A stretch of DNA of 64,000 bases from Leeuwenhoekiella aestuarii (GTDB lineage: Bacteria > Bacteroidota > Bacteroidia > Flavobacteriales > Flavobacteriaceae): positions 434,001 through 498,000 of the forward strand of contig NZ_QOVJ01000003.1 of assembly GCF_004104055.1 (NCBI RefSeq), given 5' to 3'. The position numbers and the translations under genes were made by a program. The notes under the pieces are model-generated. The model was not told where the DNA came from, did not search any database, and was given only the letters and a program-made list of their open reading frames with translations. Shown here piece by piece: positions 39,333 through 50,697 of this stretch; positions within the stretch are counted from its first letter, which is position 1; each line of letters starts with the position of its first letter.

Positions 39333-40928
39333 ATGAAACAATTAACTTCAGAAATACCAAACGAGTTTAGTGTAGAGCCTATTGAGCAGCGTAATTATTT
39401 AATTAACGGAAAGCTGTTTAACTGGAAGGGGGAAACAGCAGATGTTTTTTCAAGTATTCATACCGATGTTGACGGCGAGCGAAAACCCACGCGTTTGGGT
39501 TCTATACCTAGTCTGGGAGAAGAAGAAGCCATCGCTGCGGTAGATGCTGCGCATCAGGCGTATGACCGGGGTCAGGGACTTTGGCCTACGATGAAAGTAG
39601 CAGATCGCATCAAGTGTATGCAGACTTTTGTTACCAAAATGAAAGAAAAGCGGGAGCTTATTGTAAAACTCCTGATGTGGGAAATAGGTAAAAATCATCC
39701 CGATTCTCAGAAGGAATTTGACCGTACAGTAGAATATATTCTCGATACCATTGAAGACTATAAGGAGATGGATCGGGATAGTGCCAAGTTCCACAAACAA
39801 GCCGGAATCCACGCCCACATACGCAGAGGGCCATTAGGTGTTGTGCTTTGTCTGGGGCCGTACAACTATCCACTAAATGAAACATTTTGCCTGCTGATTC
39901 CAGCATTAATTATGGGGAATACTGCGGTATTCAAGCCAGCGAAACACGGTGTTTTATTAATCACTCCGTTGCTTGAAGCCTTTCAGGAAAGTTTTCCTCC
40001 GGGAGTAGTAAATATTTTATTCGGTCGCGGTAGAGCAGTAGCCACACCCATTATGAAAACCGGTAAAGTGGATGTATTAGCCTTAATCGGTCACAGTTCT
40101 TCGGCTAATGCGCTTCAGGCGTTACATCCCAAGCAAAACCGTTTGCGTCTTGTTTTAGGTTTGGAAGCTAAAAATCCGGCGATTATTCTTCCGGATGCCG
40201 ATTTAGATTTGGCGGTAGCCGAATGTATTGCGGGAACGCTTTCGTTTAACGGACAGCGTTGTACTGCGCTTAAAGTAATTTATGTACACGAAAACATTGC
40301 TGAAACCTTCAACCGTAAATTTGCTGAAGCAGTTGATGCGCTCAAATTTGGATTACCCTGGGAAGATGGTGTAAACCTTACTCCATTACCTGAACCTTCA
40401 AAACCCGAATACATACAGGGATTGATTGATGATGCAAAAGCTAAAGGAGCCGAAATTCTCAATGAAAAGGGTGGTGAGCATTCAGAGAATTTTATCTGGC
40501 CGGCAGTTTTATTCCCGGTAAATAAGGATATGGAAGTATACAAAGAGGAGCAATTCGGGCCCGTTATTCCGGTGCTAACCTTTAAACATATCGATGAGCC
40601 TTTAGATGATATGGCTGAGTCTAATTATGGGCAGCAGGTGAGTCTTTTTGGTAAAGATGTAAAAGCTTTGGCTCCGCTAATTGACACTTTAGTGAATCTG
40701 GTATGTCGTGTGAATTTAAACAGTTCGTGTCAGCGTGGTCCTGATGTGTACCCGTTCACCGGTCGAAAAGATTCAGCGGTGGGAACCTTGAGTGTTCATG
40801 ATGCCTTACGTTCTTTTTCAATACGAACGTTTTTAGCCTCAAAAGACAATGCATACAACAATGCAATACTTAATGAGCTGCTAGATACTAAGAAATCAAA
40901 CTTTGTAAGCACCGATTACTTATTGTAA
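39333..40928 (+). CDS. gapN: NADP-dependent non-phosphorylating glyceraldehyde-3-phosphate dehydrogenase-type
   Basis: 531 residues, aldehyde dehydrogenase superfamily, longer than the usual 480. It matches the Bacteroidetes group annotated as NADP-dependent GAPDH, which oxidises glyceraldehyde-3-phosphate directly to 3-phosphoglycerate and yields NADPH. Seen: [20 protein letters not shown], the catalytic Glu in [13 protein letters not shown], and the catalytic Cys in [10 protein letters not shown] near residue 309. It sits between the ilv and arg operons, and NADPH supply to IlvC and ArgC would make biological sense (inference). Substrate not certain. Confidence 0.8.
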
Positions 40929-41007: not shown

Positions 41008-41062
41008 AAGTAGATTTAGGTGACATTTCCCTGTAAAATGGGACGGTCATTTAAATCTACTT
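41008..41062 (+). promoter_or_regulatory. Large dyad upstream of the arg leader
   Basis: AAGTAGATTTA (41008-41018) pairs perfectly with TAAATCTACTT (41052-41062). Inside, TGAC pairs with GTCA and CCC with GGG, giving a long imperfect hairpin. It ends 18 bases before the leader ORF ATG and overlaps a promoter-like TACTTTG. It does not look like an ArgR box. It could be an operator or the start of a structured leader RNA. Confidence 0.5.
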
Positions 41063-41080
41063 TGTATTTTAGCAGTACCA

Positions 41081-41215
41081 ATGAAGGGAATTAAAAAACA
41101 TATCATACAATTGAAAGAAGCAGCAGAGGCTGGTATTTCATTTTTGTATCCTGAAACTTCCAGGACTACAATGATATTAATCCCTGTACGTCGCCATGAG
41201 CGCCGCCGCCCCTAG
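41081..41215 (+). CDS. Putative arg operon leader peptide (44 aa, Arg-rich end)
   Basis: ORF in the 382-base gap before the arg cluster. From ATG 41081 it encodes 44 residues; from the internal ATG 41171 only MILIPVRRHERRRP. The end carries five Arg codons in eight (CGT CGC, His, Glu, CGC CGC CGC) followed by Pro and TAG at 41213-41215. Arginine is the end product of the genes that follow. Small hairpins overlap the stop codon (CCC TAGT GGG) and lie just after it (GGAAC..GTTCC, about 41232-41255), but no U-run follows, so I see no intrinsic terminator. Called from composition and position only. Confidence 0.6.
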   Translation: MKGIKKHIIQLKEAAEAGISFLYPETSRTTMILIPVRRHERRRP

Positions 41216-41310
41216 TGGGTGCAGTTTTCTTGGGAACTTAGGTGAGTCCGGTTCCGTCTTCAATTCAAATTATTATTTCACTTTTTTTCTAACTTCCAAT
41301 TCAACAGAAT

Positions 41311-41976
41311 ATGGAAATTGTTATTGCTAACAAATCCCACGCGGGATATGCACAATATATTTGCGATACGATCGCAGAATCAGCTAAAGTACGTGGCACA
41401 GGAATCGCTAAGCGTACTCCGGAATACGTCATCACAAAAATGGAAAACGGTAATGCCGTCATTGCTTTAGATGGTGATAAGTTTGCCGGTTTTTGCTACA
41501 TCGAGGCCTGGGGCCACGGTAAATTTGTGGCAAACAGCGGACTCATCGTACATCCCGATTATAGAGGTAGCGGACTGGCCAGACAAATCAAGGAAGCCAT
41601 TTTTAAACATTCTCGGGAGAAATATCCTGATGCTAAAGTTTTTGGTATCACTACAGGTCTTGCCGTAATGAAGATCAATTCAGATCTGGGCTACAGACCG
41701 GTTACCTTCTCAGAACTTACCGATGATCCTACATTCTGGAAAGGCTGTCAAACCTGTCGTAATTACGATATCCTACAGCGTACGGAGCAGAAAATGTGCT
41801 TGTGTACCGGGATGTTGTACGATCCTGAAAAAGAGGAAAAGAAAAAACTGGAGGCGGCTAAGTCATCAGGCTCAGAAGCTAAAAAAGACAAAACTATGAA
41901 TCCTAAGGCCTTTACCCGTTTGAAGAGCATAAAGGAGCATCTGTTTTTGAAAAAGGATAAAAAAAAAGACGAATAA
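41311..41976 (+). CDS. GNAT acyltransferase heading the arg cluster (candidate glutamate N-acyltransferase, ArgA role)
   Basis: 221 residues. The GNAT domain (about 1-140) has the acyl-CoA loop HPDYRGSGLARQIKEAIF near 81-98. A cysteine group follows (C146, C149, C163, C165; CQTC then CLC), which could bind metal, and then a Lys/Glu-rich tail (172-221). It is first in a cluster containing every other step from glutamate to arginine, and no argJ or classical argA is seen, so the first-step role is inferred from context. Whether it uses acetyl-CoA or succinyl-CoA cannot be told. Confidence 0.72.
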   Translation: MEIVIANKSHAGYAQYICDTIAESAKVRGTGIAKRTPEYVITKMENGNAVIALDGDKFAGFCYIEAWGHGKFVANSGLIVHPDYRGSGLARQIKEAIFKHSREKYPDAKVFGITTGLAVMKINSDLGYRPVTFSELTDDPTFWKGCQTCRNYDILQRTEQKMCLCTGMLYDPEKEEKKKLEAAKSSGSEAKKDKTMNPKAFTRLKSIKEHLFLKKDKKKDE

Positions 41977-42022: not shown

Positions 42023-43210
42023 ATGAAAAAATTAGTTCTCGCCTACAGTGGCGGATTAGACACCAGCTATTGCGCTAAATACCTTTCCGTGGAAAAAGGA
42101 TTTGAAGTTCACGCCGTGAGCATCAATACCGGTGGATTTTCTCAGGAAGAAATCAACGATATTGAATCAAAGGCATTAAAAATTGGTGCAAAAACCTATA
42201 AAAATGTTCAGGCGGTTGACCGCTTTTACGATAAAGTAGTTAAGTATCTGATTTTTGGTAATGTTTTGAAGAACAATACCTATCCACTTTCTGTTAGTGC
42301 AGAGCGTATCATTCAGGCGGTTGAGATCATCAATTATGCAAAATCTATTGGTGCCGAATACGTAGCGCACGGAAGCACCGGAGCCGGAAACGACCAGGTG
42401 CGTTTTGATATGATTTTTCAAACTCTGGCTCCCGAAATCGAAATTATTACGCCTATTCGAGATTTGAAACTTTCCCGTCAGGAGGAGATCGATTACCTAA
42501 AAAGTCACGGCGTAGAGATGTCCTGGGAGAAAGCACAGTACTCGATAAACCGTGGACTCTGGGGGACTTCAGTAGGCGGTAGCGAGACCCTGACCTCGCA
42601 CAAAGGTTTACCGGAATCTGCTTTTCCATCTCAGGTAGAAAAAAGCGAAGCAGAACAGGTGACCTTAACTTTTGAAAAAGGAGAACTTACCGCGGTGAAC
42701 GGAAAATCGGGCACTCCGGTTGAAAATATTGAAACACTTCAAAAGCTAGCGGCTCCGTTTGGAATCGGTCGCGATATTCACGTGGGTGATACCATCATCG
42801 GGATTAAAGGCCGTGTAGGTTTTGAAGCTGCGGCTCCCGTGATTATTCTAAAAGCACACCATTTGTTAGAGAAGCATACGCTTACCAAATGGCAAATGCA
42901 GCATAAAGAGTATTTGTCTAATTTCTACGGAATGCATCTGCACGAAGGACAGTACTTAGATCCCGCAATGCGCAATATAGAGGCATTTTTAACCGACAGT
43001 CAGAAAAATGTTTCGGGAGAGGTTTATGTGACCTTACAACCCTATCGTTTTACATTAGAAGGAATCAAATCGGATCACGATTTGATGAATGCTTCTTTTG
43101 GCGCCTACGGCGAAATGAATAAAGGCTGGACGGCAGATGATGCCAAAGGATTTATCAAGATCACAGGGAATCAAAATAAGATTTACAACCACGTAAACGG
43201 AAATTCATGA
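42023..43210 (+). CDS. argG: Argininosuccinate synthase
   Basis: 395 residues. It ligates citrulline and aspartate with ATP to argininosuccinate. The N-terminal PP-loop LAYSGGLDTSYC (5-16) is diagnostic. Also seen: YVAHGSTGAGNDQVRFD and the central SVGGSETLT. Its stop overlaps argC by 4 bases, so translational coupling is likely. Confidence 0.96.
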   Translation: MKKLVLAYSGGLDTSYCAKYLSVEKGFEVHAVSINTGGFSQEEINDIESKALKIGAKTYKNVQAVDRFYDKVVKYLIFGNVLKNNTYPLSVSAERIIQAVEIINYAKSIGAEYVAHGSTGAGNDQVRFDMIFQTLAPEIEIITPIRDLKLSRQEEIDYLKSHGVEMSWEKAQYSINRGLWGTSVGGSETLTSHKGLPESAFPSQVEKSEAEQVTLTFEKGELTAVNGKSGTPVENIETLQKLAAPFGIGRDIHVGDTIIGIKGRVGFEAAAPVIILKAHHLLEKHTLTKWQMQHKEYLSNFYGMHLHEGQYLDPAMRNIEAFLTDSQKNVSGEVYVTLQPYRFTLEGIKSDHDLMNASFGAYGEMNKGWTADDAKGFIKITGNQNKIYNHVNGNS

Positions 43211-44184
43211 TTAAGGCAGGAATTGTAGGTGGTGCGGGATATACTGCGGGTGAATTGATTCGAATTTTACTGAATCACAAGTATGTTGATTTAAGTTTTG
43301 TTTTCAGTACCTCTAATGCCGGAAACCTGCTAAGCGATGTACATCAGGATCTTTTAGGCAGTACCGATATTCGATTTGCAGATGCTGTTGATTTTGACGT
43401 GGATGTGGTTTTCCTGTGTTTGGGACATGGGAATTCTAAAGCCTTTTTAGAACAAAATGTTTTTAGCGAAAGCACCATTATTATTGATCTAAGCAATGAT
43501 TTTCGCCTAAAACCCGACGCGGAATTTCAAGGGCGTGAATTTATTTATGGCTTACCGGAATTGAATAAAAGCGCGATCAAAGAAGCCGGTTCTATCGCTA
43601 ATCCGGGGTGTTTTGCCACAGCAATTCAGTTGGCCTTACTTCCGTTAGCTGATGCCGGTAAGATTGAGTCAGATGTGCACATCAATGCGGTAACCGGAGC
43701 TACGGGCGCAGGAACTTCGCTTTCAGCGACCACGCATTATACCTGGAGAGATAACAATTTTTCGTATTACAAGCCCTTTACGCATCAGCATATGGGCGAA
43801 ATCAATCAGACCGTTGGTCAGTTACAAGGCGGATTTGACAAGGAGATTTTCTTCCTTCCCAATCGGGGAAATTTTTCAAGAGGAATTTTCGCAACAGCCT
43901 ATACCCAATTTGATGGAGATTTAGAAGCCCTCAAAAAAGTCTACACAGATTTTTATGCCGATGCACCCTTTACATTTGTCTCGGATAACGATATTCATAT
44001 GAAGCAGGTGGTAAATACTAATAAATGCCTGATTCATTTGCACAAACACAACAATCAACTGTTGATAACGAGTTGTATTGATAACCTGCTAAAAGGCGCG
44101 TCAGGACAGGCAGTAGAAAATATGAACCTGATTTTTGGCCTTCCCCAAACAGAAGGATTGAATTTAAAAGGAAGTTATTTCTAA
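43207..44184 (+). CDS. argC: N-acyl-gamma-glutamyl-phosphate reductase
   Basis: 325 residues. NADPH-dependent reduction of N-acylglutamyl phosphate to the semialdehyde. Rossmann motif GIVGGAGYTAGELIR at the start and the catalytic Cys135 in ANPGCFATAIQLALLPL. The HQHMGEINQT block contains the conserved active-site His. Its ATG overlaps the argG end by 4 bases. A repeat-rich 166-base gap separates it from proC. Confidence 0.95.
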   Translation: MIKAGIVGGAGYTAGELIRILLNHKYVDLSFVFSTSNAGNLLSDVHQDLLGSTDIRFADAVDFDVDVVFLCLGHGNSKAFLEQNVFSESTIIIDLSNDFRLKPDAEFQGREFIYGLPELNKSAIKEAGSIANPGCFATAIQLALLPLADAGKIESDVHINAVTGATGAGTSLSATTHYTWRDNNFSYYKPFTHQHMGEINQTVGQLQGGFDKEIFFLPNRGNFSRGIFATAYTQFDGDLEALKKVYTDFYADAPFTFVSDNDIHMKQVVNTNKCLIHLHKHNNQLLITSCIDNLLKGASGQAVENMNLIFGLPQTEGLNLKGSYF

Positions 44185-44210
44185 CCTCTATAGAGATATT
44201 AAAAACCATA

Positions 44211-44334
44211 TTATTCTGAGCATAAGCCAAAGGGCAGAAATGAAAATAATATTTAAAAAATAAATCCAACTCCCCTCTCCTTTGGAGAGGGGCTGGGGGT
44301 GAGGATTAAAAGATTCCCGCCTGCGCGGGAATGA
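44211..44334. repeat. Palindromic repeats between argC and proC
   Basis: Three elements. A CTGAGC-type fragment at 44211-44237 resembles the one at 49353-49380. CCCCTCTCC TTT GGAGAGGGG (44272-44292) is followed by CTGGGGGTGAGG. ATTCCCGC CTGC GCGGGAAT (44313-44332) is a perfect 8-bp stem. These are REP-like elements, not terminators (no T-run). Confidence 0.75.
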
Positions 44335-44350
44335 TAAAAAGATATTATAG

Positions 44351-45151
44351 ATGAAAATAGCAATTATAGGTACCGGAAACTTAGGACTTTCCATCGCAAA
44401 AGGGTTGATCACCAACAATGCAATCACAACACTCTATATGACCCGCCGTAATCCGGAAGGTATTGCGTCGTATGCGGAGTATAAGAATGTGTTTGTGACT
44501 TCAGATAACGTTGAGGCGGTGAAGAAATCAGATATTATCATTTTTGCGGTACAACCCGCACAGTTGGGAGCTATTTTGCACGATATCAAAGAAGAGCTGA
44601 CTGATAAGCATGTGTTGATTTCAACCATTACCGGCTACCAGATCTCGCAAATTGAAGCCATCGTGGGTACCGATCAGTTTATCATCAGGGCGATGCCCAA
44701 TACGGCGATTGCTGTGGGCGCTTCGATGACTTGTTTAGCGAGTAATGAAAAAGGGATGAAGCGTATCAAAATCGCTGAGGCTATTTTTAACCGTTTGGGA
44801 AACAGTCTGGTAATTCCGGAAAATCAAATGCAGGCAGCAACGGTTGTTTGTGCCAGCGGTATTGCGTTCTGGATGCGTCTGATTCGTGCAACCACTCAGG
44901 CAGCGATTCAGCTTGGTTTTGATGCCAAAGAAGCTCAGGAACTAGCGATGCATACCTGTAACGGTGCTTCAAAATTACTCATCGATTCGGGTAACCATCC
45001 GGAAGAAGAAATCGACCGCGTAACCACTCCAAAAGGCTGCACCATTGAAGGCTTGAACGAAATGGAGCATAAAGGCTTGAGTTCGTCTTTAATTCAGGGA
45101 ATGGTGGCTTCCTTCAACAAAATTAATGTTATAAAAACAGACCAGAAATAA
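44351..45151 (+). CDS. proC: Pyrroline-5-carboxylate reductase
   Basis: 266 residues. It reduces pyrroline-5-carboxylate to proline with NAD(P)H. Rossmann motif IGTGNLGLSIAKGL at the start; IRAMPNTAIAVGASMTCL and TTPKGCTIEGLNEMEHKGL are the family signatures. Its stop overlaps the next start by one base, so it is cotranslated with the ornithine aminotransferase-type gene. This puts a proline step inside the arginine cluster. Confidence 0.94.
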   Translation: MKIAIIGTGNLGLSIAKGLITNNAITTLYMTRRNPEGIASYAEYKNVFVTSDNVEAVKKSDIIIFAVQPAQLGAILHDIKEELTDKHVLISTITGYQISQIEAIVGTDQFIIRAMPNTAIAVGASMTCLASNEKGMKRIKIAEAIFNRLGNSLVIPENQMQAATVVCASGIAFWMRLIRATTQAAIQLGFDAKEAQELAMHTCNGASKLLIDSGNHPEEEIDRVTTPKGCTIEGLNEMEHKGLSSSLIQGMVASFNKINVIKTDQK

Positions 45152-46284
45152 TGAGTTTATTTGATGTTTACCCACTTTATGATGTCACACCTATAAAAGC
45201 TCAGGACGTCTGGGTTTATGATGCCACACCTACAAAGTATTTAGATTTATACGGGGGCCACGCAGTGATCTCAATAGGTCACGGGCATCCCAAATACATT
45301 GAAAATCTAACCAAGCAATTGCACGACATCGGCTTTTACAGCAATGCAGTGCATAACCCCTTACAAGAGGCTTTAGGCGAAAAATTGCCGAAACAGGCCA
45401 ATTGTCCCGGTTACCAGTTGTTTATGTGTAGCAGTGGGGCAGAAGCGAACGAGAATGCGCTAAAAATGGCCTCTTTTGTTACCGGAAGAAAAAAGGTTGT
45501 GGCCTTTCACAACAGTTTCCACGGAAGAACTTCTGCAGCAGTTGCCGCGACCGATAACCCTAAAATTGTAGCGCCTATCAACGCACAGCAGGAAGTGGAG
45601 TTTTTGCCACTGGGCGATCTCGATGCGCTTGCAGCTGTTCTGGCTAAAGGCGATGTATGTGCTGTGATCGTTGAGTTTATTCAGGGTGTAGGTGGTTTAG
45701 ACATCAGCACTGCTGAATTTTACGAAGGTGTGGATAAGCTCTGTAAAGAGACCGGTACCTGCTTAATCGCAGATGAGGTACAGGCGGGTTTTGGGCGTAC
45801 GGGTAAGTTTTTCGCGTTTCAGGAATACAACGTAGAGCCGGAACTGATCTCTATGGCCAAAGGTATGGGGAATGGATTTCCGGTTGGTGGAATTCTCATT
45901 CATCCTTCAATCAAAGCAGAGTACGGAATGCTGGGAACTACGTTTGGTGGAAATCACCTGGCTTGTGCTGCTGCGCTAACGGTGCTTGAAGTTTTAGAAG
46001 AAGAAAACCTAATGGAGCATGCGCTGCTAGTTTCTGATCATTTTAAAGCAAAAACTACTGAAATTCCGCAGATCAAAAACGTAAAAGGCCGCGGACTCAT
46101 GCTGGGCATCGAATTTGATTTTGATACTGCAGCTTTGCGTAAAAAGCTCATTTACGATCAGCATATTTTTACAGGAAGTGCCAAAAACAAAAACCTGATT
46201 CGTATTCTTCCGCCTTTAACGGTGCAGAATGAACACATCGATCAGTTCTTTGAAGCACTCAAAATCGAATTAGATAAATTATAA
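45151..46284 (+). CDS. argD: N-acylornithine aminotransferase (class III PLP)
   Basis: 377 residues, class III aminotransferase. It transaminates the acylated glutamate semialdehyde to acylornithine. The PLP lysine is in ISMAKGMGNGFPVGG near residue 235; CSSGAEANENALKMA and FHNSFHGRTSAAVA are typical ArgD/RocD motifs. Position in the arg cluster supports ArgD; the adjacent proC leaves room for an ornithine-aminotransferase-like side activity. Confidence 0.92.
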   Translation: MSLFDVYPLYDVTPIKAQDVWVYDATPTKYLDLYGGHAVISIGHGHPKYIENLTKQLHDIGFYSNAVHNPLQEALGEKLPKQANCPGYQLFMCSSGAEANENALKMASFVTGRKKVVAFHNSFHGRTSAAVAATDNPKIVAPINAQQEVEFLPLGDLDALAAVLAKGDVCAVIVEFIQGVGGLDISTAEFYEGVDKLCKETGTCLIADEVQAGFGRTGKFFAFQEYNVEPELISMAKGMGNGFPVGGILIHPSIKAEYGMLGTTFGGNHLACAAALTVLEVLEEENLMEHALLVSDHFKAKTTEIPQIKNVKGRGLMLGIEFDFDTAALRKKLIYDQHIFTGSAKNKNLIRILPPLTVQNEHIDQFFEALKIELDKL

Positions 46285-46316
46285 ACCCAAGAATTTTAAT
46301 TAAAATATTGCTCAAA

Positions 46317-46356
46317 TTCTCCTCCCCAGTTGGGGAGGGGTTAGGGGTGGGGAGAA
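46317..46356. repeat. Palindromic repeat between argD and argF'
   Basis: CCTCCCCA GT TGGGGAGG (46321-46338) followed by GGTTAGGGGTGGGG. Same type as the C-rich/G-rich elements at 44272 and 49299. Confidence 0.7.
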
Positions 46357-46402
46357 GCAGAGATTTCGGCTGCTAAATATAAACTTTGACAGGAATCAAC
46401 TA

Positions 46403-47353
46403 ATGAAAAAATACACCAGTTTAGACGACATTACCGATCTACAGGAACTCATCGCGGAAGCTCGCGAACTCAAAAAAAATCCATACGCTTTTGAAGAATT
46501 AGGAAAGCGTAAGCGTTTAATACTGTTGTTTTTCAACTCCAGTTTGCGCACGCGCTTAAGTACCGAAAAAGCAGCTTGTAACCTGGGAATGGACGTCACC
46601 GTGATGAACTTTAACAGTGACGCCTGGAAACTGGAATTTGAAGACGGCACCGTAATGAATGCCGACACTTCAGAACACATCAAAGAAGCCGCTCAGGTGA
46701 TTTCGCAATACGGCGATGTGATCGCGGTGCGAGCGTTTCCTACGCTAACAGACAAAGCTAAAGATGAATCGGAATATGTGATTTCCAATTTTGTGAAGTA
46801 TGCTTCGGTACCTGTTGTCAATATGGAAAGTGCAACCGCACATCCCTTACAGGCACTGGCAGATGCCATTACCATAACAGAGCTTTCTCAAAAGAAACGG
46901 CCTAAAGTCGTGTTGAGTTGGGCGCCACATCCCAAAGCTTTGCCACATGCCGTGGCCAATTCGTTTATCGGGATGATGCAAAAAATGGATGTAGATCTTA
47001 CGGTCACACATCCTGAAGGCTATGAGCTCAGCGATGCGATTATCAAAGATACTTCAGTAAACTACGATCAGGATCAAGCACTCGAAGATGCCGACTTTGT
47101 CTACGTCAAAAACTGGAGCAGTTATAAAGACTATGGAAAAGTTTCGGCTACGCCGGAAACACATTCCGATTGGATGATCACACCTGAGAAACTAGGCAAT
47201 GCCCAATTTATGCATTGCTTACCGGTACGTCGTAATGTGATTGTTGCAGATGCGGTTTTAGACGGAATCAATTCTGTAGTGATCGAGCAGGCCAATAACC
47301 GTACGTTTTCGGCACAGGTGGTTTTGAAAAAGATTTTAGAGAATCTGAATTAA
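46403..47353 (+). CDS. argF': N-acylornithine carbamoyltransferase (ArgF' type)
   Basis: 316 residues. Transcarbamylase of the Bacteroidetes/Xanthomonas branch that carbamoylates acylornithine rather than free ornithine. Carbamoyl-phosphate loop FFNSSLRTRLST near 43-54; HPLQALADAITI; C-terminal HCLPVRRNVIVAD. In the Bacteroides fragilis enzyme Pro90 selects succinylornithine, and in Xanthomonas Glu92 selects acetylornithine. The aligned residue here is Ser90 (MNADTSEHIKEA), so the acyl group cannot be assigned. Alignment by eye from memory. Confidence 0.93.
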   Translation: MKKYTSLDDITDLQELIAEARELKKNPYAFEELGKRKRLILLFFNSSLRTRLSTEKAACNLGMDVTVMNFNSDAWKLEFEDGTVMNADTSEHIKEAAQVISQYGDVIAVRAFPTLTDKAKDESEYVISNFVKYASVPVVNMESATAHPLQALADAITITELSQKKRPKVVLSWAPHPKALPHAVANSFIGMMQKMDVDLTVTHPEGYELSDAIIKDTSVNYDQDQALEDADFVYVKNWSSYKDYGKVSATPETHSDWMITPEKLGNAQFMHCLPVRRNVIVADAVLDGINSVVIEQANNRTFSAQVVLKKILENLN

Positions 47354-47362
47354 AAAGGAAGT

Positions 47363-48142
47363 ATGAAAAAGCTTAACGTCGTCAAAGTAGGCGGAAACAT
47401 CATCGAAAAAGAGGAAGATTTACAGGCTTTTTTAGATGCTTTTGCGGCTTTGCCTGAACCCAAAATTTTGGTTCACGGGGGAGGCAAATTGGCGACACAG
47501 CTTGCAGAACGCCTTGATATACCCGTACAGATGACTAATGGTCGCCGCATCACCGATGCCGAAACCGTTGAAGTCATCACGATGGTCTACGGCGGAAAAG
47601 TAAACAAGAGTATTGTTGCCGGTCTTCAGGCTCGTGATTGTAATGCTATTGGATTTTCTGGAGCTGATGGGAATACGATTCTGTCGGTAAAGCGATCTGT
47701 GAAGGATATTGATTTTGGTTTTGTGGGCGATGTTGTCGCGGTAGATTCCAAAATGATTGATAACTTGTTGAGCATTGGGATCACACCTGCTTTTTGTGCA
47801 ATCACGCACGATGGTAAGGGACAACTGCTCAATACCAATGCAGATACCATTGCTTGTGAACTCGCGATTGGTCTTTCAGAAAAGTACGAGGTGACTTTAA
47901 ACTACTGTTTTGAGAAAGCCGGAGTATTGCTGGATATTAATGATGATAATTCGGTAGTAAAAGACATCAATTCAGAAAAATATACCGAATTACTCAATGA
48001 TAAGATTATAGCAGATGGGATGCTTCCCAAGCTTGAAAATTGCTTTTATGCGCTTAAAGGCGGCGTACACCAGGTACAACTAGGCAAACCCGAAATGCTA
48101 AAGAATAGGAATACTAATTTTACAACCTTACGACTGCAATGA
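47363..48142 (+). CDS. argB: N-acylglutamate kinase
   Basis: 259 residues, amino-acid kinase fold. It phosphorylates acylglutamate. Seen: NVVKVGGNIIEKEEDL (N-terminal lysine/glycine loop), KILVHGGGKLATQLAERL, and the substrate loop TNGRRITDAETVEVI. Ten bases after argF', and its stop overlaps the argE start (48139). In Bacteroides-type pathways the substrate is N-succinylglutamate; not decidable here. Confidence 0.94.
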   Translation: MKKLNVVKVGGNIIEKEEDLQAFLDAFAALPEPKILVHGGGKLATQLAERLDIPVQMTNGRRITDAETVEVITMVYGGKVNKSIVAGLQARDCNAIGFSGADGNTILSVKRSVKDIDFGFVGDVVAVDSKMIDNLLSIGITPAFCAITHDGKGQLLNTNADTIACELAIGLSEKYEVTLNYCFEKAGVLLDINDDNSVVKDINSEKYTELLNDKIIADGMLPKLENCFYALKGGVHQVQLGKPEMLKNRNTNFTTLRLQ

Positions 48143-49203
48143 GCATAGAAACACTTACGCAAGAGGCGATAGAATTATTAAAAAACCTGATTGCAACGCA
48201 GTCTTTTTCTTCAGAAGAAGAGGGTACCGCTGCGTTGATCGAGAATTGGTTTAAAGCACACGATATCCCTTTTAAGCGGCAAGCCAATAACATTTGGGCA
48301 ACCAACAAAAACTTTGAGGAAGGTAAAACCACCTTGTTACTGAATAGTCATCACGATACGGTTCAGCCTAATAATGGCTATACCCGAGATCCCTATAGTC
48401 CGGATATTGAAGACGGAAAGCTTTACGGTTTAGGAAGTAACGATGCCGGTGGCTGTTTGGTTTCGTTAATAGCCACATTTACCTATTTCTATGCTCAGGA
48501 AAACCCAAAATACAATCTGGTTATTGTAGCCAGCGGAGAAGAAGAGAGCAGTGGTCCTAACGGGCTTAACAGTATGCTGGAAGTCATCCCACATATAGAT
48601 GTGGCAATCGTAGGTGAACCAACTTTGATGAATTTGGCTATCGCCGAAAAAGGCCTGGTGGTTTTTGATGCCAAAGTAAAAGGGACTCCGTCTCACGCCG
48701 CGCATCCGAATGATAACAACGCGATCTATAACTGTATAGAGGTATTGCAATGGTTCAAGGCTTTTGAGTTTGATAAAACTTCTGAAGCTTTGGGAGAAGT
48801 AAAAATGACCGTTACCCAGATAAAAGGCGGGAAGCAGCACAATGCAGTTCCTGCAGATGTGGATCTCGTTGTAGATGTACGGGTAAATGATAAATATTCC
48901 AATCAGGAAATTGCAGATATGTTACAAGCTCAGGCACCCTGTGATGAAATTATACCGCGTAGTTTGCGCCTAAACTCGTCTTCTATACCTAAGGAGCACG
49001 AATTGGTCAAAGCCGGTATTGCTTTGGGTAGAAGTACCTATGGTTCGCCTACGTTGAGCGATCAGGCCGTATTGACGTGTCCGTCTCTTAAGTTAGGGCC
49101 CGGAGACAGTACGCGTTCACACAGTGCAGATGAGTTTATTTACGTCAACGAAATCGAAGAAGGAATACAGATTTATATAGATTTGCTGAAAAGCATATTA
49201 TAA
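48139..49203 (+). CDS. argE: N-acylornithine/N-acylcitrulline deacylase (M20 family)
   Basis: 354 residues, zinc-dependent M20 peptidase family. Metal-site motifs: LLNSHHDTVQP near residue 72 and GSNDAGGCL, the catalytic base region ASGEEESSGPN, and a dimerisation domain with SHAAHPNDNNAI. Because the transcarbamylase works on the acylated substrate, this enzyme is expected to deacylate N-acylcitrulline. Translationally coupled to argB by overlap. Confidence 0.9.
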   Translation: MSIETLTQEAIELLKNLIATQSFSSEEEGTAALIENWFKAHDIPFKRQANNIWATNKNFEEGKTTLLLNSHHDTVQPNNGYTRDPYSPDIEDGKLYGLGSNDAGGCLVSLIATFTYFYAQENPKYNLVIVASGEEESSGPNGLNSMLEVIPHIDVAIVGEPTLMNLAIAEKGLVVFDAKVKGTPSHAAHPNDNNAIYNCIEVLQWFKAFEFDKTSEALGEVKMTVTQIKGGKQHNAVPADVDLVVDVRVNDKYSNQEIADMLQAQAPCDEIIPRSLRLNSSSIPKEHELVKAGIALGRSTYGSPTLSDQAVLTCPSLKLGPGDSTRSHSADEFIYVNEIEEGIQIYIDLLKSIL

Positions 49204-49382
49204 TCCCCATAGCCCCGAAGGGGTAATGATTAGCGGGAATAGAAATAATACTAACATCTTTAAAATCGCCAGCGATTTTAATTTCACGAAATAAAAGTTC
49301 CCCCTCCCTGAGAGGGGTTTAGGGGAGGACAATAAGATTTCCAGTCTGTAGTTTATCCTGAGCGATAGTCGAAGGGCGGAAA
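49204..49382. repeat. Repeat-filled gap between argE and argH
   Basis: Contains CCCC GAA GGGG (near 49213-49223), the perfect 9-bp stem TAAAATCGC CA GCGATTTTA (49261-49280), a C-rich/G-rich pair CCCCCTCC..GAGAGGGG with TTTAGGGGAGG (49299-49328), and a CCTGAGCGATAGTCGAAGG element at about 49358-49376. No ORF. These fit small palindromic repeat families seen elsewhere in the cluster. Confidence 0.7.
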
Positions 49383-49398
49383 TAAAAAAAAAGGAGAT

Positions 49399-50697
49399 AT
49401 GAAACTTTGGGATAAAGGAGCAAACATCGATGACAAGATCATCAATTTTACAGTAGGTAATGATCGAGAGATTGATACCCATATTGCGAAATACGATGTG
49501 CAGGCAACCCGCGCGCACGTAAAAATGTTAAATAAAATTGGTATTCTGACAGGTCAGGAGCTTAAGGATTTATTGCCCCAACTGGATATACTCGAGGCGC
49601 ACACCCAAAACCCCGACTTCTTTATTGAACCCGAGTATGAAGATATTCATTCTAAGCTAGAAGCCGAATTAACCCTTATTCTGGGCGAAACTGGTAAAAA
49701 AGTACACACAGCACGCTCGCGTAACGATCAGGTCTTAGTGGCCCTGCAATTGTATTACAAAGAGCAGCTGCAGCAGATTAAGGCCCGTACGATTTCGCTT
49801 TTTGAAACTTTGATGCATTTGGGGGAAACCCACCAAAACAAATTGTTACCTGGATATACACATTTACAGGTAGCGATGCCTAGCAGTTTTGGACTTTGGT
49901 TTACCGCCTATGCAGAATTACTTATTGATGATGTCATTCTTCTTAATGCCACGCAGGATATTGTAGATCAAAATCCGTTAGGTTCTGCAGCCGGCTACGG
50001 AAGTTCGTTTCCTATTGACCGCCAAATGACGACTAAAGAGCTGGGCTTTGCCACGATGAAATACAATGTGGTTGCTGCGCAGATGGCTCGCGGTAAGAGT
50101 GAGCGTACGCTGGCTTCCACTTTGGGAAGTCTGGCCAATACGCTTTCACGCTTTGCGATGGATGTGTGTTTGTATATGAGTCAGAATTTTGGCTTTGTAA
50201 GCTTTCCGGAGCAATTGACTACCGGAAGCAGCATTATGCCGCATAAAAAGAATCCCGATGTTTTTGAACTCATACGCGGGAAGTGTAATAAAATCCAGGC
50301 TTTAAGTACCGAGATGGTTCTCATTACCAATAACCTGCCCAGTGGATACCACCGCGATTATCAATTGTTGAAAGAAAACACCATCAATGCTGTAGAGTCG
50401 ATGAAAGATATTCTGGAGATTTTTGACTATGCAATCGGGCAGGTGCAGGTTAAAGAAATTGACCTGAATGACGACAAATATAAATACCTGTTTACGGTAG
50501 ACAGCATCAATGATCTGGTGGTTGGAGGTAAATCCTTTCGTGAAGCTTATCAGGAAATAGGTGGGCAGGTACAGGCCGGTACCTATAAGCCTGAAGCCGG
50601 TAAAAGCCATACCCATATTGGTAGTATTCACAATCCCGGTTTTGCAGAAATCAAAGCCAAAATGCGCAAGTATTCAACTGCTCTGGATATTAAATAA
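49399..50697 (+). CDS. argH: Argininosuccinate lyase
   Basis: 432 residues, fumarase/aspartase superfamily. It splits argininosuccinate into arginine and fumarate. Signature GSSIMPHKKNPDVFE near residue 276, TARSRNDQV and GYTHLQVAMPSSFG are present. Last gene of the cluster, followed by a terminator. Confidence 0.96.
   Translation: MKLWDKGANIDDKIINFTVGNDREIDTHIAKYDVQATRAHVKMLNKIGILTGQELKDLLPQLDILEAHTQNPDFFIEPEYEDIHSKLEAELTLILGETGKKVHTARSRNDQVLVALQLYYKEQLQQIKARTISLFETLMHLGETHQNKLLPGYTHLQVAMPSSFGLWFTAYAELLIDDVILLNATQDIVDQNPLGSAAGYGSSFPIDRQMTTKELGFATMKYNVVAAQMARGKSERTLASTLGSLANTLSRFAMDVCLYMSQNFGFVSFPEQLTTGSSIMPHKKNPDVFELIRGKCNKIQALSTEMVLITNNLPSGYHRDYQLLKENTINAVESMKDILEIFDYAIGQVQVKEIDLNDDKYKYLFTVDSINDLVVGGKSFREAYQEIGGQVQAGTYKPEAGKSHTHIGSIHNPGFAEIKAKMRKYSTALDIK

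Follow-up and report, generated by a model that had tools for sequence, protein, structure and literature searches.

A conserved arginine-codon leader and two-hairpin element before the arginine cluster of Leeuwenhoekiella aestuarii and other Flavobacteriaceae: a putative ribosome-mediated attenuator

The arginine cluster of Leeuwenhoekiella aestuarii lies downstream of a gap that holds a short open reading frame (ORF) ending in a run of arginine codons, raising the question of how these genes are controlled and whether that reading frame takes part. The window examined here, by which we mean the whole 64,000-nucleotide stretch of DNA that was analysed (contig NZ_QOVJ01000003.1, forward strand), had been the subject of a preliminary description that proposed tuning of the cluster by ribosomes at the arginine codons and named a functional ArgR site as the observation that would instead account for control. 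No such regulator came to light: a search with the PF01316 N-terminal domain model only, which was positive in 9 of 14 control genomes, found ArgR in 0 of 100 family genomes, including that of the window, and control by ArgR is hence not supported. Likewise, Rfam (T-box and riboswitches included) gave 0 matches in the window at gathering score, and the 7 matches of a below-threshold search all lie far under their gathering scores, at chance level.

The gap spans 382 bases, from the stop of an aldehyde dehydrogenase gene at 40928 to the start at 41311 of a GNAT gene that is followed by argG and that has 99% identical relatives named Leeuwenhoekiella (L283, L284). Within it, a 44-amino-acid leader peptide, MKGIKKHIIQLKEAAEAGISFLYPETSRTTMILIPVRRHERRRP, is encoded from the ATG at 41081 to the TAG at 41213–41215, and five of its last eight codons specify arginine. 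The gap, the ORF, its ending and its coordinates are exactly as first described, and so are two hairpins at or after the leader stop, H1 (41207–41221) and H2 (41233–41255). The leader had also been called the only ORF in the gap, which goes too far; it is present, but so are an ORF at 41196–41330, in another frame and entering GNAT, and a GTG ORF from 41020. The features referred to below are as follows.

41065–41072, + strand: −7-like promoter box TATTTTAG, its last G lying 9 positions upstream of the first base of the leader ATG
41081–41215, + strand: leader ORF, 44 codons, ending VRRHERRRP-TAG, from the ORF list and the comparison of relatives
41189–41209, + strand: arginine-rich codons RRHERRR of the leader, with RR[HR]ERRR kept in 8 of 9 named Leeuwenhoekiella loci
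41207–41221, + strand: hairpin H1, CGCCC / GGGTG, loop CTAGT with the stop codon
41222–41232, + strand: linker from H1 to H2, U-rich in relatives
41233–41255, + strand: hairpin H2, GGAACT / GGTTCC, with a bulged TA and the conserved tip GG-U-GAG-U-CC
41256–41310, + strand: spacer to the GNAT start, 55 nt here; in relatives, median 49 nt and G-poor
41311–41976, + strand: GNAT-family acetyltransferase (PF00583), first gene of the cluster
42023–50697, + strand: remaining arginine cluster, with argG (PF00764) and an argC-type dehydrogenase (PF01118)

The later ORFs of this last segment we take, from their translations, to be proC, argD, argF-type, argB, argE-type and argH.

Whether the leader is more than a chance reading frame can be judged from its relatives. 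A search of 299 family genomes detected GNAT in 197, and 150 upstream regions were fetched, mostly those with the better GNAT matches. A conserved element precedes GNAT in 146 of these 150 Flavobacteriaceae loci, counted where the H2 tip was present by regular expression, with an H1 candidate then assigned in each by progressively looser patterns; the four loci outside these counts, which have no regular-expression motif, are L030, L167, L090, with a weak covariance-model match farther upstream, and L206, with what appears by eye to be a degenerate copy. The element runs from an open frame with terminal CGT/CGC arginine codons through a 5-bp H1, a 10–15-nt U-rich linker and H2 to GNAT. In 143 of the 146 loci the frame encoding Arg-Arg-Pro stays open for 25 codons or more upstream, a length that the two alternative frames reach in 17 and 38; the 15 codons before H1 hold 3.36 arginines in this frame as against 0.73 and 0.46 in the others. 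Furthermore, an ORF ending with at least 4 arginines among 14 codons occurs in 127 of the 150 upstream regions, where 20 shuffles gave a mean of 4.4 and a maximum of 8. Loss of the arginine run upstream of GNAT–argG in relatives, which had been put forward as grounds for giving up the idea, is thus not what the search returned, and on this comparison the window leader is a conserved arginine-rich leader ORF, beyond chance. The run does vary in strength: the 14 codons ending at H1 include at least 3 arginines in 141 of 146 loci, at least 4 in 112 and fewer than 4 in 34. Among 80 named loci, the regular-expression motif was absent in 7, and 28 did not reach 4 arginines in the last 14 codons. Four loci named Flavobacterium (L359–L362) keep GNAT and have no motif by regular expression, and two named Polaribacter (L348, L354), together with L336, show a short-loop H1, a leader end RPLGV and fewer arginine codons, a decaying or altered version.

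It is informative to ask what within the leader is kept, the peptide or its codons. Eight of the nine named Leeuwenhoekiella loci end in IPVRR[HR]ERRRP as the window does, the ninth, from a MAG (L290), having a diverged leader. Across the window and eight named loci, variation touches 9 of the final 13 codons, in 7 of them only synonymously, and all 20 codons before those 13 vary with a change of amino acid, in a comparison that is ungapped over leaders of unequal length and hence partly misregistered. Over the family, 133 of 146 loci have the stop immediately after the second H1 codon and 13 leaders continue for 3–10 codons beyond H1; an in-frame Arg-Arg-Pro-stop is the commonest ending (75 of the first 89 loci, 124 of all 146). 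Such an ending would suit nascent-peptide arrest, in which the peptide itself senses arginine within the ribosome in the manner of TnaC or the fungal arginine attenuator peptide (AAP). TnaC of Escherichia coli, whose leader exerts Rho-type control, senses tryptophan and has a C-terminal Pro-stop, and the fungal AAP senses arginine, so that the short peptide and the Pro-stop or the arginine response are points of likeness; both of those peptides, however, need specific internal residues, whereas the leader here keeps composition and codons and not a peptide sequence. In the peptide list, examined by eye, no residue beyond the terminal arginine codons is near invariant, and the proline becomes threonine or leucine in L033, L034, L065, L066, L021 and others, where H1 changes too, so that proline seems to follow the hairpin. 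The parallel with fungal CPA1/arg-2 drawn in the preliminary description does not survive these observations, and we consider peptide arrest very unlikely.

The codons tell a different story from the peptide. CGT and CGC make up 566 of the 611 arginine codons in the last 12 leader positions, and still 287 of 328 when the two motif codons are left out; in a comparison set, the GNAT genes of L002–L031, they make up 66 of 236. Farther upstream, at leader codons −25 to −12, arginine is scarce (2.3% versus a background of 3.9%) and 40 of the 46 codons concerned are AGA or AGG. This terminal excess, together with the upstream scarcity, points to selection for CGY at the leader end only. CGY is not rare in the host, since, across the 34 long ORFs of the window itself, 326 of the 501 arginine codons are CGT/CGC. 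Relative to the H1 codon, arginine occupies position 0 in 100% of loci, −1 in 94%, −6 in 42% and −5 in 39%.

The end of the leader is also part of an RNA structure, as the 5′ arm of H1 is the last arginine codon plus the next codon, mostly proline, and the stop usually falls in the H1 loop. From the outer to the inner pair (n = 146), H1 has CG in 107 loci (CA in 37); GU in 137 and GC in 9; CG in 145; CG in 138 and AU in 5; and CG in 143 and UG in 2, with two rows holding fewer than 4 of the 5 pairs. The loop is GTAA in 102, and the other loops mostly contain a stop too (TTAA, CTAG, GTAG), which suggests that a stop at this place is under selection. Compensatory change was scored in a sequence alignment (A1) that is not fitted to structure, the pairing test resting on 85 loci and the model search having been given 90 of the 150: 94.3% of cells are paired, compared with 23–53% in slid controls; 7 pairs are changed on both sides, with 0 of 500 shuffles as high; and double-change cells number 45 versus 13.2 in shuffles. 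In 26 of 84 rows the bases at the outer H1 position do not pair.

The second hairpin is more elaborate, with a lower stem of six pairs showing many compensations and then a GC pair, a covarying pair, a U·U and a GNG triloop. Its tip hardly changes: the bulged A is present in 141 of 146 loci, the outer GC in 145, the U·U in 145 and the triloop in all 146 (GAG 108, GTG 29, GCG 9), while the inner pair is GC in 141, AU in 4 and UA in 1. The Shine–Dalgarno-like AGGTGA in H2 was considered and rejected, because its sixth base varies and A-U variants of the inner G-C keep pairing. A tip that is near invariant while its inner pair covaries points to a binding partner, and would be expected if H2, perhaps with H1, were a metabolite- or protein-binding RNA, riboswitch-like or factor-binding, to which the leader ORF is a second input. 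Such an RNA would be small for an aptamer, however, the Rfam searches described above speak against it, and the second hairpins of some leaders in other families differ by eye; we regard this reading as improbable.

If the two hairpins do not form a binding RNA, how might they act on transcription or translation? Within the linker, which sets H1 and H2 10–15 nt apart, uridine peaks at 0.79 and 0.80 at +9/+10 after H1 and is highest 9–12 nt downstream of H1, not directly after the stem. Hairpin-stabilised pauses have a spacing of this kind, and the position of the peak is more in keeping with a pause hairpin than with a terminator. A simple terminator scan weakly flags H1 and its U-rich stretch in the window, where 4 terminator-like sites compare with a shuffle mean of 2.1 (s.d. 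1.6); across loci a terminator-like match occurs in 71 of 146 (69 H1-based) versus 4.3 in 20 mononucleotide shuffles, which destroy H1 by design. The earlier statement that no intrinsic terminator is visible passes over H1 and its linker, which are terminator- or pause-like; and the further claim that the mechanism would be new or translational is too strong, given this arrangement and given that ribosome-mediated attenuation is already a known kind. As for translation, folding predictions make the GNAT start about equally accessible whether a ribosome is stalled (median 0.49) or not (median 0.48), and a translational switch is therefore not apparent. The predicted probability of H1 exceeds 0.5 in 124 of 146 loci, though it is only 0.45 in the window, and at 0.16 there with a ribosome at codon −6; H2 is predicted to form either way (above 0.5 in 98 of 146 with a stalled ribosome and 83 of 146 without). 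Folding of the single-ORF leaders gave no conserved competing terminator/antiterminator pair, and an antiterminator made of the H1 3′ arm and H2 was rejected, there being no sign of it in the folding.

It is also worth considering termination of another sort. The spacer from H2 to GNAT (median 49 nt, range 41–98) falls within 35–60 nt in 136 of 146 loci, and in relatives it contains 7.2% G and 16.3% C. In a Rho-dependent leader, H1/H2 and this G-poor stretch would serve as a Rho entry, with the position of the leader ribosome gating loading. The G-poor composition and the absence of a canonical terminator agree with this, and there is a precedent joining arginine codons with Rho control: the Salmonella speF leader orf34 is described as an arginine-codon ORF in which low-arginine ribosome pausing alters the downstream RNA, controlling ornithine decarboxylase via Rho, ribosome-binding-site unfolding and RNase G (PMC6386406), a likeness that lies in the use of arginine codons. 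A ribosome stalled in the leader would, however, leave the spacer beyond H2 uncovered, and Rho loading alone explains neither the tight spacing nor the specific H2 tip. A Rho-dependent leader thus seems unlikely to us, if still worth keeping in mind.

The closest general comparison is with the classical amino-acid leaders. Those of E. coli trpL and hisL place a short ORF, rich in codons for the amino acid of the pathway, between promoter and operon; their first hairpin, 1:2, has the decisive codons within or close to its 5′ arm and a loop that contains the stop codon, and a 3:4 hairpin with a U-run is the terminator. The leader described here is similar in lying between a putative promoter and the operon, in its pathway codons and in the stop within the loop of H1, the counterpart of 1:2. 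It differs in that no 3:4 U-run terminator or competing antiterminator was found, H2 with its conserved tip being there instead, in that the start lies at or next to the promoter box, and in that the amino acid is arginine. Because the terminator/antiterminator pair was not found, we do not file it as a plain classical attenuator; the best reading is that it works like the classical leaders with a different anatomy. Within the family to which the host of the window belongs by name, structured 5′ leaders of Flavobacterium psychrophilum are reported to carry clues to leader-peptide attenuation before amino-acid biosynthesis operons, the relevant section of that survey naming pheA, hisG and others and no arginine operon (PMC9723704). 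Likewise, the uORFC-8-2 motif before cysS in Rhodobacterales is described as a conserved leader element with tandem specific codons inside its first stem, as here, although it concerns cysteine, has a U-run terminator and belongs to another phylum (PMC8632094). The literature searched, by titles and abstract starts and with most subscription journals, preprints and supplements outside coverage, held no arginine leader in Bacteroidota.

How widely is the element distributed? A covariance model (R1) matches 199 of the 299 family genomes at E ≤ 0.01, about two thirds; each genome appears once among the matches listed, and some have weaker further matches. At E ≤ 2e-4, by hand tally, 185 genomes match, 182 among the 197 that bear GNAT and 3 among the 102 others, and 15 of the 197 have no match. 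When 43 strong loci were examined (L092–L134), 42 lay at GNAT–argG, and L101 at argG without a detected GNAT. Among 247 genomes of the phylum, the best match outside the family has E 3.4e-5, and among the weak matches in other families (17 examined, L135–L151) L139 alone lies at GNAT–argG, so the rest were set aside as chance; the H1 of L139 has a TTCG loop, and the ORF there ends in QRRFRRRPSGRV. A looser survey outside the family, of 63 loci left after six Flavobacteriaceae loci were removed from 69 in a class sample, found an arginine-rich-ending ORF before GNAT in 25, versus a shuffle mean of 3.2 and 9 of 63 in a reverse-complement control, from which perhaps about two thirds of the 25 are real leaders. 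Two of these other-family leaders, L225 and L243, have by eye a stop in a hairpin loop and a different second hairpin. The second-hairpin tip of L225, L227, L243 and L244, from other Bacteroidia families, is by eye of a CC-TACGY-GG type, compared with AGGTGNGTCC in Flavobacteriaceae. The class sample has 61 GNAT-bearing genomes, 57 of which are from outside the family; PF01316 was detected in 4 of the 61, and all four ArgR genes lie within about 0.4 kb of GNAT. Two of these loci were fetched: L271 has no arginine-rich leader, and L273 a doubtful one at −36 that is counted in the 25 of 63. Where ArgR is present in this sample it adjoins GNAT (L281, L282 = G626, G654; G517, G525), as if leader and ArgR were alternatives.

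Within the family the leader takes more than one form. A single leader ORF is found in group A (44 loci) and group C (20, the window included), and in group B (82 loci) 63 carry a further upstream arginine-rich ORF of the type MKNxKNKIR..RRR, a criterion that also picks out 7 of 44 group A loci, in a chance-looking way. This upstream ORF (e.g., L013, L027, L035) starts about 200 nt before H1 and has its own −7-like box. For a 31-sequence subset of group B, folding predicts pairing between its first codons (KNKIR) and the region that precedes the second ORF; the start of that second ORF (GTG, TTG or ATG) was assigned by position, and its translation is less sure. Upstream of the arginine codons, the only conserved hairpin found was, in group A, a helix of 4 bp close to the start.

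The −7 consensus of Bacteroidota promoters is TAnnTTTG, and the box in the window has 5 of 6 matches, which is weak alone, an equal or better match occurring at 68 of the 220 control positions. Of the 44 group A boxes, 33 match at 6 of 6 and 11 at 5 (controls, 6 and 62 of 220), ending 6–10 positions before the leader ATG; among the 63 group B loci with an upstream ORF, 57 have a box 5–6 positions ahead of the first ORF. From this spacing and the consensus we infer a candidate promoter that would place the 5′ end of the leader mRNA on the start codon or immediately upstream of it. An inverted repeat, GTAGATTTA-N33-TAAATCTAC (41010–41060), adjoins the window box on its 5′ side; all named Leeuwenhoekiella loci but L290 (8 of 9) share its arms, its middle varies, and it is a candidate operator or upstream hairpin. 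As an operator it is counted against by being the sole copy in the genome. The repeat is nonetheless what would be looked for if a DNA-binding regulator acted at the promoter and the leader were incidental, a reading that leaves the family-wide conservation of codons and hairpins unexplained, that finds no ArgR to call on, and that we think extremely unlikely.

Comparison of relatives, then, establishes the ORF, its codons, H1, H2, their spacing, the link to the operon and the failure to find ArgR, and by the same evidence the sensing half of a mechanism, a leader ribosome reading arginine codons, is well supported. We think it probable, with real room for doubt, that the element is a ribosome-mediated, cis-acting attenuator that senses arginyl-tRNA through its CGY codons and uses H1 as a pause or weak-terminator hairpin. 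Transcription would start at or near the leader ATG, to judge from the spacing of the box, and the leader would be translated as it emerges, the ribosome decoding the CGT/CGC cluster whose last arginine codon, with the codon after it, forms the 5′ arm of H1. Because this arm is covered when the last arginine codons are in the ribosomal A site, H1 is the natural output target. With ample arginine, the ribosome would finish and leave, H1 would form, and polymerase would pause or terminate in or just past the U-rich linker, keeping the operon low; with arginyl-tRNA short, the ribosome would dwell on the last arginine codons, H1 would be blocked, and transcription would go on into GNAT–argG. Two difficulties attend this attenuator: a stall at −6/−5 leaves H1 free, so severe starvation could give the wrong sign, and a ribosome on the stop codon would block H1 as well.

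The part of H2 is less clear-cut. It may be a second, independently folding hairpin whose conserved tip recruits a trans-acting factor that completes the decision, with RNA polymerase, a NusG or Rho-type factor, or the ribosome as candidates. A more specific version, in which the leader ribosome gates H1 as a pause hairpin and not a terminator/antiterminator, synchronising polymerase with an H2 whose tip is read by a trans-acting factor, in which H2 is a new Flavobacteriaceae RNA element and in which the whole module replaces ArgR, is one that we put forward tentatively and hold to be doubtful.

If the attenuator reading is true, it would explain how arginine synthesis is controlled in a large bacterial group without detectable ArgR. 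It would also extend the leader-peptide systems to arginine biosynthesis and establish a compact two-hairpin element.
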